A stretch of DNA of 64,000 nucleotides from Ignavibacteriales bacterium (GTDB lineage: Bacteria; Bacteroidota; Ignavibacteria; Ignavibacteriales; Melioribacteraceae): NCBI GenBank assembly GCA_016177735.1, contig JACOUS010000032.1, positions 1 through 64,000 of the forward strand, in the 5' to 3' direction. Positions 29,396 through 36,172 of this stretch are shown in pieces. The translations under genes were made by a program, and so were the position numbers. The stretch's first letter is position 1, and every line of letters begins with the position of its first letter. The notes under the pieces are model-generated. The model searched no databases and was not told the DNA's origin. It was given only the letters and a program-made list of their open reading frames with translations.

Positions 29396-32300
29396 CTACT
29401 TAGCTGAATCAATTTCTTTTAGCAGTTCATCAACAGCAGTTTTTAATTGCTCATCTTCGCCTTTTGCAAGCCAGTCGGGTTGATTGTAAACAATTATATC
29501 GGGCACTGCCGGACCGAGTTCTTGATTCTTATCAGTAGTTTTTGTGAACCATCCTCTCATCGGAAGACGAACGAACGAACCGTCAATTAATCCGCGTCCA
29601 CCGGTTGAAATAACAGAACCGTTAGTCGGCACACCGACGAGCTTGCCGATGCCGAGAGATTTATATGCGTGTGAAAAAATTTCTGCATTTGAGTAACTGC
29701 CTTCATTGCAAAGAGCGATAGACGGTTTTGTCCACGCCGCGAAAACAAGCCGTTCGCCAATCGGGTAATAACTGCGGAAGTTTTTCTTGTCGCGTTCAAG
29801 ATTATCACTTGCACCGCGTGGAATTGTGTATGCGTGCTGCTTGTAATTCAAAACGGTCATTAAATAATCTGTTGTAGAACCGCCGCCGTTGTAGCGTACA
29901 TCAACTACCAAACCTTCTTTGCCGTAGCCGGCTGCAGTCAACTCACGTTCAAAAACTTCGAAGCTCGGAAAATCCATTCCCTGAATATGAATATATCCGA
30001 GCTTTCCGTTCGAATATTTTTCGACAAGTTGTTTTCTTTGTTCTACCCACTCTTTGTATAAAAGCTGATTTTGGTTTTGCACCGGACGAATTGCAACTTC
30101 ACGCTCTTTGCCGTTTTTATCTTTTACATTCAATAAAATTCTTTCATCGGCTTTTGTGTTTAACATTTCATAAAAATTTTCTTTGTCATTGAACGGAACG
30201 CCGTCAACAGCAGTAATTAAATCATCCGCGAAAAGTTTGCTTGCGGCTTTATCCGCCGGCGATTCCGGAACTACTCTGTTTACTTTCATTCCTTCTTTTG
30301 TAGGAATCAATTCGGCACCGAGCAGACCGGTTGCATCTTTTTGAGTTTCGCCGCGCTCCTGATTATACAAACCCATATGGCTTGCGTTCAATTCGCCGAG
30401 CATAAAATTGAACATGTCTCTAAAATCATTATTGGTGGATGCATTGACGCAAAGTTCTTTGTATTTATCGTGGAGATCATTCCAATTTTTTCCGTGGAAC
30501 TGCGGATCGTAAAACCAATCTCTGATAGCGCGCCATGCTTCTTCAAAAATTTGGGAACGCTCAGCGGGGTAATCAATTTTTATTTTTACAGAATACGGAA
30601 GCGCTTCCGATTTATCTCCTTTGATTTCGTTTCTGTTCAACGAACCGCCGGTTTTGAAGTAGTAGATATATTTTCCTTCTTTATCAATTGAAACACCGGC
30701 TGGATTCGATCCGCCCTTCGTAATTTCTTTCAGATCTTTTCCGTCCCATTTGATGCTGTAAAGATCGCGTCCTTTTGCAGTGCTGCTTTGAGCAGTGTAA
30801 TAGAATGTTTCGCCGTCTTTTGAAATAATTAAATCGGCTTCATTGCCGGGAAAGTTTGTTACCTGAACGATGCGTACATAAATATTTTCGAAATCGATTT
30901 GGATCGGTTTAGTTTTTGTGCTGTCTTTTTTATCGCCTTTATCTTTCGGCTTATCATCTTTTTTTTCCGAAGCCGGTTCTTTGTCTTCCCAATCTTGTTT
31001 TGTTTTTTCCCAATCATCTTTTTTCAGCCAGACAAACCAGAGATCGCTTGTGCGGTTGTTGCGTGCGGAAATGAATCCAAGTTTCGAACCGTCCTCGCTC
31101 CAAAACGGATTTGAGTCTTCGCGCGGATGCATACTTACGTTTACCGCTTTACCTGAGTTATCCGCCGCATGAATAAATACTTCCGTGTTGAAATAAAGAT
31201 CATCGCAAGCATATGCAAGCCATTTGTTATCGGGACTCCATTTTATTCCCGAAGGTTCAGCCCATCCGCTCTGCAAAATTTTTTCGCTGCTTAATTTTCC
31301 GTCGGCGGAAATTTCTGTAGTGACCAAATCTTTTTTATCGCCGCCGCGGATATATGCAATCTTTTTCCCGTCGTTCGAAACAACCGGATTCGATTCGTCT
31401 TCGTCTGTATCGGTGATTCTGATGATTTCGTGTTTGAGCGATTTGAAAATGTTGTGCTCGGCTTTGTCTGCCGAGCGCACGAGATACAACTCGAAATTGT
31501 TGTCGCTGCGGTCCGAAGTAAAAATAATTGTTGTATCGCTGAGCCAAACAGCGCTCATATCTCTGAAAGGTGAATCGGATAAATTCACGCTTCTGCTTTT
31601 TTCCTTGTCTGCTTCTTTGACGAACAATTCTCCGCGCACGACAAATGCAATTAATTTTCCGTTAGGTGATACCGAATATTCGCTTGCATTGTTTGTCATC
31701 GTTTTGAACTCGATCGGATCGAAGCGTTCATCTGCATTTATTTTTATCTCCACTTTGTGCGGATCGATCTTCGCGGTTTTTGATATGTAAATATTTTTAT
31801 CTCTTTCGAAGACTAAAGCAGATGCGTCGCTCGATAATCCGAAATATCTGATCGAATAATCTTTGTAATTTGTCAATTGTTCCGGCTTGCCGGTTGGTTT
31901 GCCGTTTTCGTCAATTGTGATTTTGTAAATATTGTAATTGCCTGTGTTCGAACTCAAAAAATAAATTGTTCTGTTCCCGTCCCATTGCGGATAAATATCA
32001 TTCGTATCAAAATCGGTGAGCTTCAAAAATTTTTTTGTTTTGTTATCGTAAAGCCAGATATCTCTGTTTGAAGGACCGCGGTATTCTTCTCGGAAAACCG
32101 GGTTAATATCGCCGCGCACGAATGCAAGAAATCTTCCGTCGGGTGAAAGTGCCGGGTCGAATCCCACGGCATCGAGAATTCTTTTTTCGGTTCCGCCGTT
32201 TGAAGAAATTGAATAAACTTCCGACGGTCGTTCGATCAAATTAAATTCTCTGTTTGTTGAAAAAAGAATATCGCCGTCTGCAGTCCAGCTTGAAATATTA

Positions 32301-32632
32301 TCGGCGGCGGAATGAAATGTGAGGCGTTTCGGCAACCCGCCTTCGGAGGACATAACACACAAATCGTTGTTGCCGTAACGTGCACCGCTGAATGCAATTT
32401 TTTTTCCATCCGGACTGAATTTCGGAAAGACTTCATAAGCCTCGTGCACTGTTAGCCGCGAAGCCGTTCCGCCGGATGATGGAACGGTCCAAATATCGCC
32501 TTGAAATGAAAAAGCAATTTTAGTACCGTCGTTATTGAGTGACGGGTAGCGGAGAAGCTGTGAATTATTTTGTGTGTGAATTGTTGTGAAAGAAATAATT
32601 AGTAACGAGAAACAAAAGAATATTTTTTTCAT
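29396..32632 (-). CDS. Tricorn-like S41 protease with TolB-type propeller
   Basis: A 1078-residue secreted protein: signal peptide (MKKIFFCFSLLIISFTTIHT); repeated WD40/TolB-like propeller blades with 'SPDGKKIAFSG', 'SPDGRFLAFVRG', 'SPNGKLIAFVV' and 'SEDGSKLGFISA' to about residue 560; a charged Lys/Asp linker (~570-600); a second propeller-like part; a PDZ domain (~770-850, 'GLLGAELIPTKEGMKVNRVVPESPADKAAS'); and an S41 catalytic core with the candidate nucleophile in 'NEGSYSNAEIF' (Ser ~979-981) and 'RYNGGGSTTDYLM'. This is the domain order of tricorn core proteases, which cut peptides into short pieces. Here it is exported, not cytosolic. Paired with the M1 aminopeptidase it could serve peptide use. 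Confidence 0.92.
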   Translation of the reverse strand: MKKIFFCFSLLIISFTTIHTQNNSQLLRYPSLNNDGTKIAFSFQGDIWTVPSSGGTASRLTVHEAYEVFPKFSPDGKKIAFSGARYGNNDLCVMSSEGGLPKRLTFHSAADNISSWTADGDILFSTNREFNLIERPSEVYSISSNGGTEKRILDAVGFDPALSPDGRFLAFVRGDINPVFREEYRGPSNRDIWLYDNKTKKFLKLTDFDTNDIYPQWDGNRTIYFLSSNTGNYNIYKITIDENGKPTGKPEQLTNYKDYSIRYFGLSSDASALVFERDKNIYISKTAKIDPHKVEIKINADERFDPIEFKTMTNNASEYSVSPNGKLIAFVVRGELFVKEADKEKSRSVNLSDSPFRDMSAVWLSDTTIIFTSDRSDNNFELYLVRSADKAEHNIFKSLKHEIIRITDTDEDESNPVVSNDGKKIAYIRGGDKKDLVTTEISADGKLSSEKILQSGWAEPSGIKWSPDNKWLAYACDDLYFNTEVFIHAADNSGKAVNVSMHPREDSNPFWSEDGSKLGFISARNNRTSDLWFVWLKKDDWEKTKQDWEDKEPASEKKDDKPKDKGDKKDSTKTKPIQIDFENIYVRIVQVTNFPGNEADLIISKDGETFYYTAQSSTAKGRDLYSIKWDGKDLKEITKGGSNPAGVSIDKEGKYIYYFKTGGSLNRNEIKGDKSEALPYSVKIKIDYPAERSQIFEEAWRAIRDWFYDPQFHGKNWNDLHDKYKELCVNASTNNDFRDMFNFMLGELNASHMGLYNQERGETQKDATGLLGAELIPTKEGMKVNRVVPESPADKAASKLFADDLITAVDGVPFNDKENFYEMLNTKADERILLNVKDKNGKEREVAIRPVQNQNQLLYKEWVEQRKQLVEKYSNGKLGYIHIQGMDFPSFEVFERELTAAGYGKEGLVVDVRYNGGGSTTDYLMTVLNYKQHAYTIPRGASDNLERDKKNFRSYYPIGERLVFAAWTKPSIALCNEGSYSNAEIFSHAYKSLGIGKLVGVPTNGSVISTGGRGLIDGSFVRLPMRGWFTKTTDKNQELGPAVPDIIVYNQPDWLAKGEDEQLKTAVDELLKEIDSAK

Positions 32633-32785: not shown

Positions 32786-34171
32786 CTACTTAACGTACTT
32801 GGAAATAAACTCTTCAACTTCCGGCAAGCCGCCTTGGTAAATTAGATATCCGTTGCTCGGTTCGCGTTCGGTAATTTCTCCGGCAATTGGTGTGAGCATA
32901 ATTTCTTTCACCTTTGCGGGATCGTTTGTTTGTCCCAATGCCCAGCACAATTTCATGTATGCGGCTTCGGGTAACATGTTAGCCGCCGGCACAACGCCAA
33001 GTTCCATCATATCGCGACCGGTATCGTAAACATACATTTGCACAAAACCCCAAAGAGTCTGCACTGTCATGTAAACTGCAATTCCTTTTTCATGTGCACG
33101 TTTCAACGATGGATAAAGCGGTTTGTTCACATGTCCCAAACCCGTACCGGCAATAACAATTCCTTTGTAACCGTTGTCAATCAACGAATCGATTATATCG
33201 GGTTTCATGTTCGGGTAGTAATAAACGATGCTTACTTTTTCTTCGAACGAAGTGTTGATTATGACATTGCGGTCTTTGCGCCGCTGCTTGTAATCATGCC
33301 GCAGAGGAATAATTTCATCGCGGCTCACTTTTGCAATTGGAATATCGCCGATAGTTCTGAAAGTAGAACGGTAACTCGAATGCATTTTTCGCACTCGTGT
33401 TCCTCTGTGAAGCAATCCGTAATAATCCGAAGTAGGACCGAACATGCAGACCATCACTTCGGCAATATTACTTTCCGCAGCTGTTTTTACTGCGTGCATT
33501 AAATTTAGTGCGGCATCGGATGAAGGTCTGTCGCTCGAACGCTGCGAACCAACCATTACAATCGGCACCGGAGAATTTTGAACCATGAAAGAAAGTATTG
33601 CCGCAGTGTGATGCATTGTATCTGTGCCGTGCCCGATTACAATTCCATCAACTCCTTTTTCAATTTCTCTTCCGATTGCCTGTGCGGTTCCGATCCATTG
33701 TTCGGGTCCCATGTTTTCGCTGAAGACGCCGTAAAGTTTTTCCGTTTCGAGATTGCAGTAGTGTGCAAGTTCGGGAACTGAACTGTAAAGCTCACCGGGA
33801 GAAAATGCCGGAATAACAGCGCCGGTTCTGTAATCCAAACGGCTTGCAATTGTTCCGCCGGTGCAGAGTAATTTTACTTTTGGTTTGTTCGGACTCGTGG
33901 GAAATTCTTTTTCGGGAATTTTGTAGTGCGCTTCTTTGCGTCCTTCAATTTTGATATCGAGAACTTTATCTGCCGCAATTCCAATGTTGTAACCAACACG
34001 AAGTTTGATGACGATGTGAAATGAGTCGGCAGTTTCAGAGCGCGGTAAAATTATTCCTTTATAATTGCAGTTTGCAGTGATTATTTCCGCATCGCTCCAA
34101 ACTTGCGCATTAAAATTTTTTAGAACCGATAATGCTTTGCCTCTGTAACCTTTGTAGTTATTGTCATTCAT
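32786..34171 (-). CDS. gatD: Glutamyl-tRNA(Gln) amidotransferase subunit D (archaeal type)
   Basis: The glutaminase subunit of GatDE: it releases ammonia from Gln (or Asn) for amidation of Glu-tRNA(Gln) by GatE. After an N-terminal barrel domain (from ATG 34171, MNDNNYKGYRGKALSVL..) comes an asparaginase-like domain with catalytic threonines in 'CTGGTIASRLDYRTG' and 'GHGTDTMHHTAA', the Asp next to the second Thr, and a Lys in 'GTRVRKMHSS', the T-T-D-K set of GatD. Unlike plain asparaginases it has the extra N-terminal domain and lies next to gatE. An upstream ATG at 34246 is rejected: it would translate a tandem intergenic repeat (HKVHKVHKENRKERKEK). 90 bp after gatE. Confidence 0.93.
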   Translation of the reverse strand: MNDNNYKGYRGKALSVLKNFNAQVWSDAEIITANCNYKGIILPRSETADSFHIVIKLRVGYNIGIAADKVLDIKIEGRKEAHYKIPEKEFPTSPNKPKVKLLCTGGTIASRLDYRTGAVIPAFSPGELYSSVPELAHYCNLETEKLYGVFSENMGPEQWIGTAQAIGREIEKGVDGIVIGHGTDTMHHTAAILSFMVQNSPVPIVMVGSQRSSDRPSSDAALNLMHAVKTAAESNIAEVMVCMFGPTSDYYGLLHRGTRVRKMHSSYRSTFRTIGDIPIAKVSRDEIIPLRHDYKQRRKDRNVIINTSFEEKVSIVYYYPNMKPDIIDSLIDNGYKGIVIAGTGLGHVNKPLYPSLKRAHEKGIAVYMTVQTLWGFVQMYVYDTGRDMMELGVVPAANMLPEAAYMKLCWALGQTNDPAKVKEIMLTPIAGEITEREPSNGYLIYQGGLPEVEEFISKYVK

Positions 34172-34179
34172 AATTTTCT

Positions 34180-34227
34180 CTTTGCGTTCTTTGCGATTTT
34201 CTTTGTGCACTTTGTGCACTTTGTGCG
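34180..34227. repeat. Tandem TTTGTGCAC / TTTGCG words in the gatE-gatD spacer
   Basis: Three near-identical 9-mers (CTTTGTGCA) at 34201-34227 next to two CTTTGCG words at 34180-34195. They create a misleading open frame upstream of gatD. This is a common class of intergenic word repeat. Confidence 0.6.
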
Positions 34228-34261
34228 AAATGTTTTTCCCATGCAAAATTCACCAAGTCCG

Positions 34262-36172
34262 CTAAATATGATTTAAGATTTTTTCGCTTACAATTTTTCC
34301 TTCTACATTTATTCTTACTTTGTTCATTACCAAGCCCATCAAAACTTTGGCGGTATTTTCTTCGTCAAACAATTTTATCGATTTCATTTCTTCTTTTACT
34401 GCCGAAATTGTTTCGTCGATTTCTTTTGTTGTAACCGGTTTGGGTAAAAGTTCGGAATAGAATTTCCCTTTTACTATTGATTTCCGTACTGCAACTAAAA
34501 TTCCGTGCCGTGAAAGTAATCCGTCTTTGTACGCTTTGAAAATTTCTCTCATCATTTCTTCGTTAATAAGAGCTACATCAACACCGTTTCTCTTCAGTCT
34601 TTTTGGGTATTGAATCAATGCAACTGCCGCAAGCGTCGGATTGATTTTCCATTCATTCACAACGTACTTAAAAAGTTTTGCGAATTTCGAAATAGAGAGT
34701 TCACGAATCGTATCTTGTGGAATGGCAAGCTGATTGTACCAATCTTCACGTTCCCAAAATTTTTCCGGCAGATTAACTTGTAATTTTTCCAATCGTTCGC
34801 TCGTAATTCTTGTCGGCGGCAAATCGGTATCGGGATACATTCTATCGGGTCCGGGCAGAATTCTTTCGAAGCCGTTTGTACCGTCGCGCAAAGCTTGCCG
34901 TGTTTCGGACGGAACGCCAATCGCTGCTTCTTTTGCACGAATAATAATTTCTTTCACGGCAGTATCGGTATCGATTTCATTTCCCCAAACTATAACCATC
35001 GAGTCGTCGTCTGTTGCGCCGGCGGCTCTTTTTATATTCAGCCATTCAGCCGATGTTAAATTTTCTCCGCGGCTGTCCGAGTGAATTATATTCGGAATGT
35101 TTGTTAGGCATGCAATTACACGAACACGGTCCGAAATTTCTTTTGAGAAATAAGTGTCAGTTTGTGTCTGCCAGTGAAGCAATCCGGCGAAGCCGCTAAG
35201 TACAACGCACTTAACGGATAAACCTTGTTCGATTGCACTGCGCACCGGCTGGTAGTAAACTTTTTTTACGAGACGTGTAATGTCTTCCCATTTCGCAGAG
35301 AAAGAATCTTTTGTAATTTTTCTTTTATGAAGTTCATCACGCAGACGCAAAAGATTCCATTGGCGCATCGCTTCGTTGTAAGTGAGTAGAGGAATTCTTC
35401 CGATTTTTGGAACACCTTTTATTTCGATTCGCGTTCCTCCGTCCACACTTACGTTTACATCTTCACGTGCAGAACCGATTCCGCGCCGCATTTTATTTGT
35501 ACTGCGGACAAGATTAGCACACATCTCCGCAACTTCGGCAGCTTCGAACGGAGTTTTCATATTCGGTCCGGTTACGGTTTCAATCAGCGGCATACCGAGC
35601 CGGTCGGCAAGATAAATGCGCGAGTGTCCCGAATCGGAAACTTCGCGGCACGAATCTTCTTCGATAGACATCTGCACAATATCGATCTGCCTGTTCTTAA
35701 ACGGAATTTTTCCATTGAGTGCAAAAATTGCCGTGCGCTGAAATCCGGTTGGAATACTGCCGTCCAAATATTGTTTGCGTACGATGTGGAGTTCATCAAC
35801 GATTGAGCAGTCAAACAACATTCCGCATCCAAGTGCAATATCGAGCGCTTCTTCGTTTATTAAAAAAGGCGGAGTGTCGTCCATTTCGTAAGTACAAATC
35901 GTATCGCGGTTGATTCTGTAAGTGATATCTTTTTTCGTTTTGAATTCCATCAATGCAGTACCGTCATATTCACCGAGTTCGGAAAGGGTAGGACGCATGT
36001 GCCGCAAAATTTCGGCATCGTATTTTTCGCTGTACATTCCAGCCGGGCAGCGGCAGAAAAGTTTTTTTGATGTTAATAATTGCTGATGAATTTCGAGTCC
36101 GGATTTGAAGCCGACAGTTTCGTAATCTTTGCCGGTCATTTCTTCAAATGATTTAAAAATGAATTCTTTCAT
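34262..36172 (-). CDS. gatE: Glutamyl-tRNA(Gln) amidotransferase subunit E (archaeal type)
   Basis: A 636-residue GatE: it phosphorylates and amidates Glu on misacylated tRNA(Gln), giving Gln-tRNA(Gln) in the cytoplasm. It begins 'KDYETVGFKSGLEIHQQLLTSKKLFCRCPAGMYSEKYDAEILRHMRPTLSELGEYDGTALMEF' (in part); GLEIHQQL and the Cys pair CRCP belong to the GatB/GatE kinase-amidase core. The insert typical of GatE, absent in GatB, occupies the middle of the protein (from about residue 285, with 'GFAGLLHWQTQTDTYFSKEISDRVRVI' and 'MYPDTDLPP'), and the C-terminal YqeY-like tail ends 'TAKVLMGLVMNKVRINVEGKIVSEKIL'. The family is regarded as archaeal, so presence in this bacterium suggests transfer. First gene of a gatE-gatD operon. 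Confidence 0.95.
   Translation of the reverse strand: MKEFIFKSFEEMTGKDYETVGFKSGLEIHQQLLTSKKLFCRCPAGMYSEKYDAEILRHMRPTLSELGEYDGTALMEFKTKKDITYRINRDTICTYEMDDTPPFLINEEALDIALGCGMLFDCSIVDELHIVRKQYLDGSIPTGFQRTAIFALNGKIPFKNRQIDIVQMSIEEDSCREVSDSGHSRIYLADRLGMPLIETVTGPNMKTPFEAAEVAEMCANLVRSTNKMRRGIGSAREDVNVSVDGGTRIEIKGVPKIGRIPLLTYNEAMRQWNLLRLRDELHKRKITKDSFSAKWEDITRLVKKVYYQPVRSAIEQGLSVKCVVLSGFAGLLHWQTQTDTYFSKEISDRVRVIACLTNIPNIIHSDSRGENLTSAEWLNIKRAAGATDDDSMVIVWGNEIDTDTAVKEIIIRAKEAAIGVPSETRQALRDGTNGFERILPGPDRMYPDTDLPPTRITSERLEKLQVNLPEKFWEREDWYNQLAIPQDTIRELSISKFAKLFKYVVNEWKINPTLAAVALIQYPKRLKRNGVDVALINEEMMREIFKAYKDGLLSRHGILVAVRKSIVKGKFYSELLPKPVTTKEIDETISAVKEEMKSIKLFDEENTAKVLMGLVMNKVRINVEGKIVSEKILNHI

Follow-up and report, generated by a model that had tools for sequence, protein, structure and literature searches.

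The stretch of DNA considered here (the window) comprises 64,000 nucleotides, positions 1 to 64,000 of contig JACOUS010000032.1 in the Ignavibacteriales assembly GCA_016177735.1. On its minus strand are adjacent gatE and gatD genes which, going by their reading frames, are predicted to encode the two intact subunits, catalytic motifs kept, of the Glu-tRNAGln amidotransferase GatDE. The features on which the argument rests are the following.

34262..36172, minus strand: gatE, Glu-tRNA(Gln) amidotransferase subunit E of the bacterial branch, 636 amino acids (aa)
34928..35302, minus strand: insert domain like that of aspartyl-tRNA synthetase (AspRS), GatE residues about 291-415, absent from GatB; limits approximate and set by hand
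34265..34492, minus strand: tail (YqeY-like) domain, GatE residues about 561-636, fold retained, sequence poorly conserved in bacteria
32786..34171, minus strand: gatD, asparaginase-like subunit D, 461 aa, likely start the ATG at 34171
32789..32854, minus strand: GatD C-terminal extension NGYLIxQGGxPEVEEFISKY..., GatD residues 440-461, a signature of the bacterial branch

The longest gatD open reading frame (ORF) is that from 32786 to 34246 on the minus strand, with a TTG start at 34246. Since 17 of the 19 further GatD ORFs in the alignment have lengths of 460-468 aa, and the 25 additional codons of the longest frame span a short repeat, the ATG is the likelier start. The repeat itself, between the two genes at window positions 34180-34240, is a direct one made of cacaaagtg units.

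Both products exceed the cut-offs of curated NCBIfam equivalog models, GatE with 540.3 bits on PRK04028 (cut-off 456) and 475 bits on TIGR00134 (319.55), GatD with 518 bits on PRK04183 (310) and 516.8 bits on TIGR02153 (324). GatE lies below all GatB cut-offs, its best GatB model yielding 137.7 bits where 338 are needed, and the contention of an earlier sequence-only reading that this is true GatDE, not GatB with a stray asparaginase, is upheld. Among 14 control genomes TIGR00134 gave four over-cut-off matches, and four of the controls are archaea, two counts given irrespective of whether they coincide. Pfam domains found are GatB_N and GatB_Yqey in GatE, and GatD_N with Asparaginase N and C in GatD. 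Across loci, GatD was found in 113 of 126 stretches, with none in 13 and a cut one in 13, and its catalytic motifs are kept nearly throughout (TGGTIAS and HGTD[TVI] each in 111 of the 113 rows, RKMH in 109, the remainder being gaps or X). The T-T-D-K asparaginase domain noticed earlier is thus borne out, with the roles of its individual residues presumed. At one locus (G078) a TAA was flagged within the match; its ORF is nonetheless 635 aa long and contains an X run.

Fold comparison points the same way. The predicted GatE model has as its best match 2d6f_D, GatE of the Methanothermobacter thermautotrophicus GatDE-tRNA complex (Z 24.4, root mean square deviation 5.0, 452 residues), and also matches Pyrococcus abyssi GatE, 1zq1_C (Z 22.1, deviation 4.4, 433 residues). 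Over residues 288-427 the model resembles AspRS chains (Z 10.9-13.6), in keeping with the GatE-specific insert that had been read from the sequence, and over residues 470-636 it resembles the N-terminal part of human (Z 9.5) and yeast (Z 7.8) GlnRS. The predicted local distance difference test (pLDDT) score is below 50 at GatE residues 39-102, 128-147, 174-192 and 430-451. The GatD model has a mean pLDDT of 71.5 and is below 50 at residues 429-461, so that no inference is drawn on where the C-terminal extension docks.

Archaeal GatDE (2D6F, 1ZQ1), the source of the best sequence as well as fold matches, has in common with the window pair its two subunits, domain order, AspRS-like insert, GatD_N plus asparaginase core and catalytic residues; the window GatE is 40-43% identical to three archaeal GatE over the cradle and 18-21% over the tail. 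The window pair differs in having a bacterial host, the GatD extension, an accompanying GlnRS and tRNAGln with a U1-A72 pair. Bacterial GatCAB carries out the same chemistry on Glu-tRNAGln but has a third subunit and another kind of glutaminase subunit; its GatB, like GatE, has a catalytic cradle and a helical/YqeY C-terminus, yet is without the AspRS-like insert. Type I L-asparaginases share the GatD core; GatD differs from them in its N-terminal domain, in being encoded next to gatE and in exceeding the equivalog cut-offs for GatD. Since GatE has the insert and a YqeY-type tail, GatD has GatD_N and T-T-D-K type motifs, and the two genes are side by side, the pair belongs to GatDE.

Relatives are not confined to this host. 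Within the phylum GatE is over cut-off in 21 of 296 genomes, all 21 being among the 73 of the host's own class. A scan of named genomes with the GatE alignment and two patterns, in which a single locus may count twice, gave at least 588 relatives (588 of 590 matched stretches confirmed among the matches listed). All of its best 80 loci bear bacterial titles, from Ignavibacteria/Melioribacteraceae, Kapabacteria, Aminicenantes, Acidobacteria, Phycisphaerae/Planctomycetota, Latescibacterota, KSB1, Calditrichota (Calditrichaceae), Neomarinimicrobiota and Cloacimonetes. Nearly all are metagenome-assembled genomes (MAGs), and the GatE of two genomes from the host's family is the same, residue for residue, as in named Melioribacteraceae MAGs. 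In the Neomarinimicrobiota, 25 of 199 genomes have GatE over cut-off. Hence the pair belongs to a distinct branch present in several bacterial phyla and is no isolated archaeal pair within a single bacterial host; a recent archaeal transfer is accordingly unlikely, and the earlier suggestion of a transfer peculiar to this bacterium is not sustained. Nor is contamination a fair explanation, the assembly being listed as 3.87 Mb, 99.99% complete and 0.03% contaminated, and the PIN/PhoH gene 5′ of gatE being in that position in 10 related loci too; together with the 80 listed bacterial relatives this rules out recent archaeal contamination.

The bacterial proteins have their own marks. Forty-four GatE positions have a residue found in ≥97% of bacterial rows and absent from three archaea, all euryarchaeal, while 84 are common to ≥97% of bacterial rows and all three archaea, including E27, H29, E171, E172 and E198, which we take to be the metal/activation site. 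Of the 100 GatD whose 3′ end is complete, 97 have the extension motif, and the other three carry close variants (a stricter pattern, with 33 of 125, was too narrow to carry meaning); alignment with archaeal GatD 2d6f and 1zq1 ends before it, 7-8 residues short of the chain ends.

How old is the branch? In a tree with 6 of 10 GatB rows and 125 bacterial GatE (128 stretches less the short L215-L217), the bacterial sequences are separate from the three archaeal, with a Shimodaira–Hasegawa-like approximate likelihood ratio (SH-aLRT) support of 81. In a 50-row tree rooted on four GatB, for which 43 of the 125 bacterial rows were hand-picked, support is 78/60 on the bacterial side and 100/99 on the archaeal. 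The tree program also cautioned that the archaeal and GatB branches, both long, come together. Given the weakly supported branch, that warning and only three archaeal sequences, the separation, which the sequence-only reading had proposed examining, accommodates both a sister group to the archaeal enzymes and one old transfer; bacterial GatDE may be ancient, or may stem from such a transfer. A second divergent GatE sub-branch of 16 rows (L200-L214, L085), with a long stem and support 100, is made up of Neomarinimicrobiota and one genome of the host's order.

The host is well provided for without GatDE. Its genome encodes GlnRS (752.5 bits), AsnRS (505.3 bits) and, elsewhere than at this locus, GatA (612 bits) and GatB (615.5 bits), and has one GluRS-like match besides GlnRS. 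The main parts for both direct and GatCAB-type formation of Gln-tRNA are therefore at hand beside GatDE, GatC having been outside the search. Replacement of GatCAB or GlnRS by GatDE in the host is ruled out by the presence of GlnRS, GatA and GatB, and GatDE is not the sole route. Of the alternatives offered earlier, a pair that replaced GatCAB or coexists with it, it is coexistence that stands. The host's tRNAGln(CUG) and tRNAGln(UUG), identified with ARAGORN on tRNA stretches, are of bacterial type, and both have a U1-A72 pair as read from the sequence.

The review PMC9499178 describes GatDE as now confined to archaea, with all archaeal species lacking GlnRS, and the archaeal enzyme as reading A1-U72 of tRNAGln; a second review, PMC8007984, also gives GatDE as archaea-only. 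Here the host is a bacterium with GlnRS, and the relatives are in named bacterial MAGs. A bacterial branch, mostly in cells with GlnRS, conflicts with the first statement and perhaps with the second. Its existence has a bearing on the question of GatDE being ancestral to both domains, and provides a natural test of why cells that have a direct route should retain an indirect one. No title on bacterial GatDE was found among the 28 papers mentioning GatDE, in a search that covers few subscription papers. Since databases using these NCBIfam models probably already name such proteins GatD or GatE, it is only the written account that would be new, not the annotation.

Coexistence with GlnRS is the rule among relatives. 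Among the 73 class genomes, 19 of the 21 with GatE have GlnRS over cut-off vs 24 of the 52 without (Fisher p 0.0005, relatedness uncorrected), and GatB over cut-off is missing in 5 of 21 vs 2 of 52 (p 0.018), as if GatDE can take over a GatCAB task. Of the two GatE-bearing genomes without GlnRS, G247 shows no more than a piece of GluRS either, and the assembly may therefore have lost its GlnRS. Fifty named GatDE-bearing genomes, chosen by hand for spread from the best 80 loci, have GlnRS over cut-off in 38 and GatB in 19. Among 60 picked Neomarinimicrobiota genomes GlnRS exceeds the cut-off in 21 of the 27 bearing GatE (25 over cut-off, 2 partial), in 14 of the 20 without GatE or GatB matches and in 1 of the 13 with GatB-like matches only, the GatB model search having left out four without GlnRS over cut-off (G397, G408, G424 and G432). 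In that phylum GlnRS tracks the absence of GatCAB as much as the presence of GatDE. As an observation on its own, a chromosome-level Phycisphaerales record (L170/G330) has GatB and GatE, a GlnRS-like match of just 97 positions (428-524) and a GluRS-type match.

Constraint was compared in 16 class genomes having both GatE and GatB (120 non-independent pairs, domain limits set by hand). Mean identity in the cradle is 0.785 for GatE vs 0.703 for GatB, GatE being higher in 105 of 120 pairs; in the tail it is 0.302 vs 0.516 for the GatB YqeY domain, GatE being lower in all 120. Archaeal GatE pairs have cradle identities of 0.57-0.59 and tail identities of 0.36-0.42, and bacterial GatE pairs with cradle identity 0.68-0.80 average about 0.25 in the tail. 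According to a passage of PMC4810234, the tail and the small dihydrouridine loop (D-loop) help separate tRNAGln from tRNAGlu in both GatDE and GatCAB. The catalytic part of bacterial GatE thus appears tightly held and its putative D-loop reader loosely.

On balance we favour, without great assurance, the view that the bacterial GatDE clade has an intact amidotransferase core and serves as a second or corrective Glu-tRNAGln amidotransferase beside GlnRS. As archaeal GatDE does, GatD would hydrolyse Asn or Gln, the ammonia would pass to GatE, and GatE would activate the gamma-carboxyl of the glutamyl residue and then amidate it. The likeliest substrate would be Glu-tRNAGln, so that Glu misplaced on tRNAGln is most likely what would be repaired, giving a second route to Gln-tRNAGln, and the tRNA would most likely be read without an A1-U72 pair. 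Supporting this are the curated models, the shared GatE positions, the GatD motifs, the fold match to tRNA-bound archaeal GatE, the placing of gatD directly after gatE in most loci without another common neighbour, and the co-occurrence with GlnRS; the GatB loss in some GatE-bearing genomes and two loci (L084, L147, out of 126 stretches) with glnS in the gatDE flank also fit a second or corrective route.

Several considerations weigh on the other side. A tail far less conserved than that of GatB in every pair is a poor fit with a D-loop-reading enzyme. The U1-A72 pair in the host, where the archaeal enzyme reads A1-U72, lowers the claim of archaeal-like substrate reading, though that pair is a property of the archaeal substrate and not of the protein family. 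Whether the host's GluRS makes Glu-tRNAGln receives no sign from the position of Thermus thermophilus Arg358: it is Arg in 60 of 60 aligned GluRS (19 from GatE-bearing genomes, 20 from genomes with GatB and neither GlnRS nor GatE, 20 from genomes with GlnRS and no GatE, and the host) and, being Arg also in the 20 without GlnRS, is uninformative on discriminating GluRS in this class. An excerpt of PMC3927822 has it that altering the equivalent residue of Helicobacter pylori GluRS1 lacked such an effect. The frequency of GlnRS in Neomarinimicrobiota devoid of GatE and GatB means that the GlnRS link may be one of shared ancestry, and none of the genomes examined is a clear case of GatDE as the only route.

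Does the machine perhaps work on something else? With its chemistry kept, GatDE could have been repurposed for a different acceptor, another glutamyl- or aspartyl-tRNA or a non-tRNA glutamyl group, and persist for that reason beside GlnRS and GatCAB; this we regard as possible, though clearly the less probable course. An unusually conserved cradle next to an unconserved tail, the 44 bacteria-specific GatE positions, an almost invariant new GatD C-terminus and a host already in possession of GlnRS, AsnRS, GatA and GatB would all suit it, the loose tail, U1-A72 tRNAGln and new GatD end leaving room for another substrate. It sits less easily with a tail and helical domains retained in length and fold, with the 84 positions common to all three archaea, and with the want of any conserved neighbour indicating another pathway, for besides gatE-gatD itself no operon or pathway partner cluster is shared by more than 14 of the 101 loci. 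In a more specific form, offered tentatively, a deep bacterial branch would have been released from tRNAGln D-loop reading and would use the existing ammonia-channelling machinery on a different glutamyl acceptor, the new GatD C-terminus being its mark. If so, GlnRS and GatCAB would be joined in such cells by a third system with a function of its own.

That certain bacteria depend on GatDE for all or most of their Gln-tRNA, with GlnRS or GatCAB as the accessory, is improbable. Each of the 73 class genomes has at least one of GlnRS and GatB. Of the 50 named genomes seven have neither over cut-off (G302, G306, G307, G310, G333, G338 and G345); in two of them one gene is split across contigs, GlnRS in G333 and GatB in G345. 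G302, G306, G307 and G310 have no GluRS-type match either and may be incomplete MAGs, though this missing match is no proof of incompleteness, since G004, listed as 100% complete, likewise shows none. The case most in favour is G338, a Neomarinimicrobiota MAG (locus L181) with GatE and GluRS-type matches and neither GlnRS nor GatB over cut-off. That the pair is a relic or redundant left-over of a past transfer with no present role is very unlikely, patchy as its distribution is (21 of 73 class genomes), given that both subunits are open and neighbouring in several phyla, catalytic motifs are kept and the GatE cradle is under constraint stronger than that of GatB.

As to surroundings, gatD is just 3′ of gatE in most loci. 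The PIN-PhoH gene and another neighbour, presumably an aldehyde dehydrogenase, are mainly common to close relatives. Next to the pair in the window lies a further gene:

29396-32632: tricorn-like S41 protease, with PD40, PDZ and Tricorn_C1 domains

This had been pointed out earlier as one of a family first recognised in archaea; its cluster is in the flanks of only 6 of 101 loci, window included, and it is not a conserved partner.

No GatE relative was seen in viral contigs, phage records being outside that search. A plasmid search yielded one full-length GatE, from the haloarchaeon Natrinema, the other 19 records matching at most 42% of the query and, where annotated, being gatB. The Natrinema plasmid gene (L190:6001-7853) is frameshifted, and no listed gene covers it. 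Finally, in the two genomes G431 (C142, C148) and G427 (C141, C108) there are duplicates, two GatE over cut-off in one and two GlnRS over cut-off in the other.

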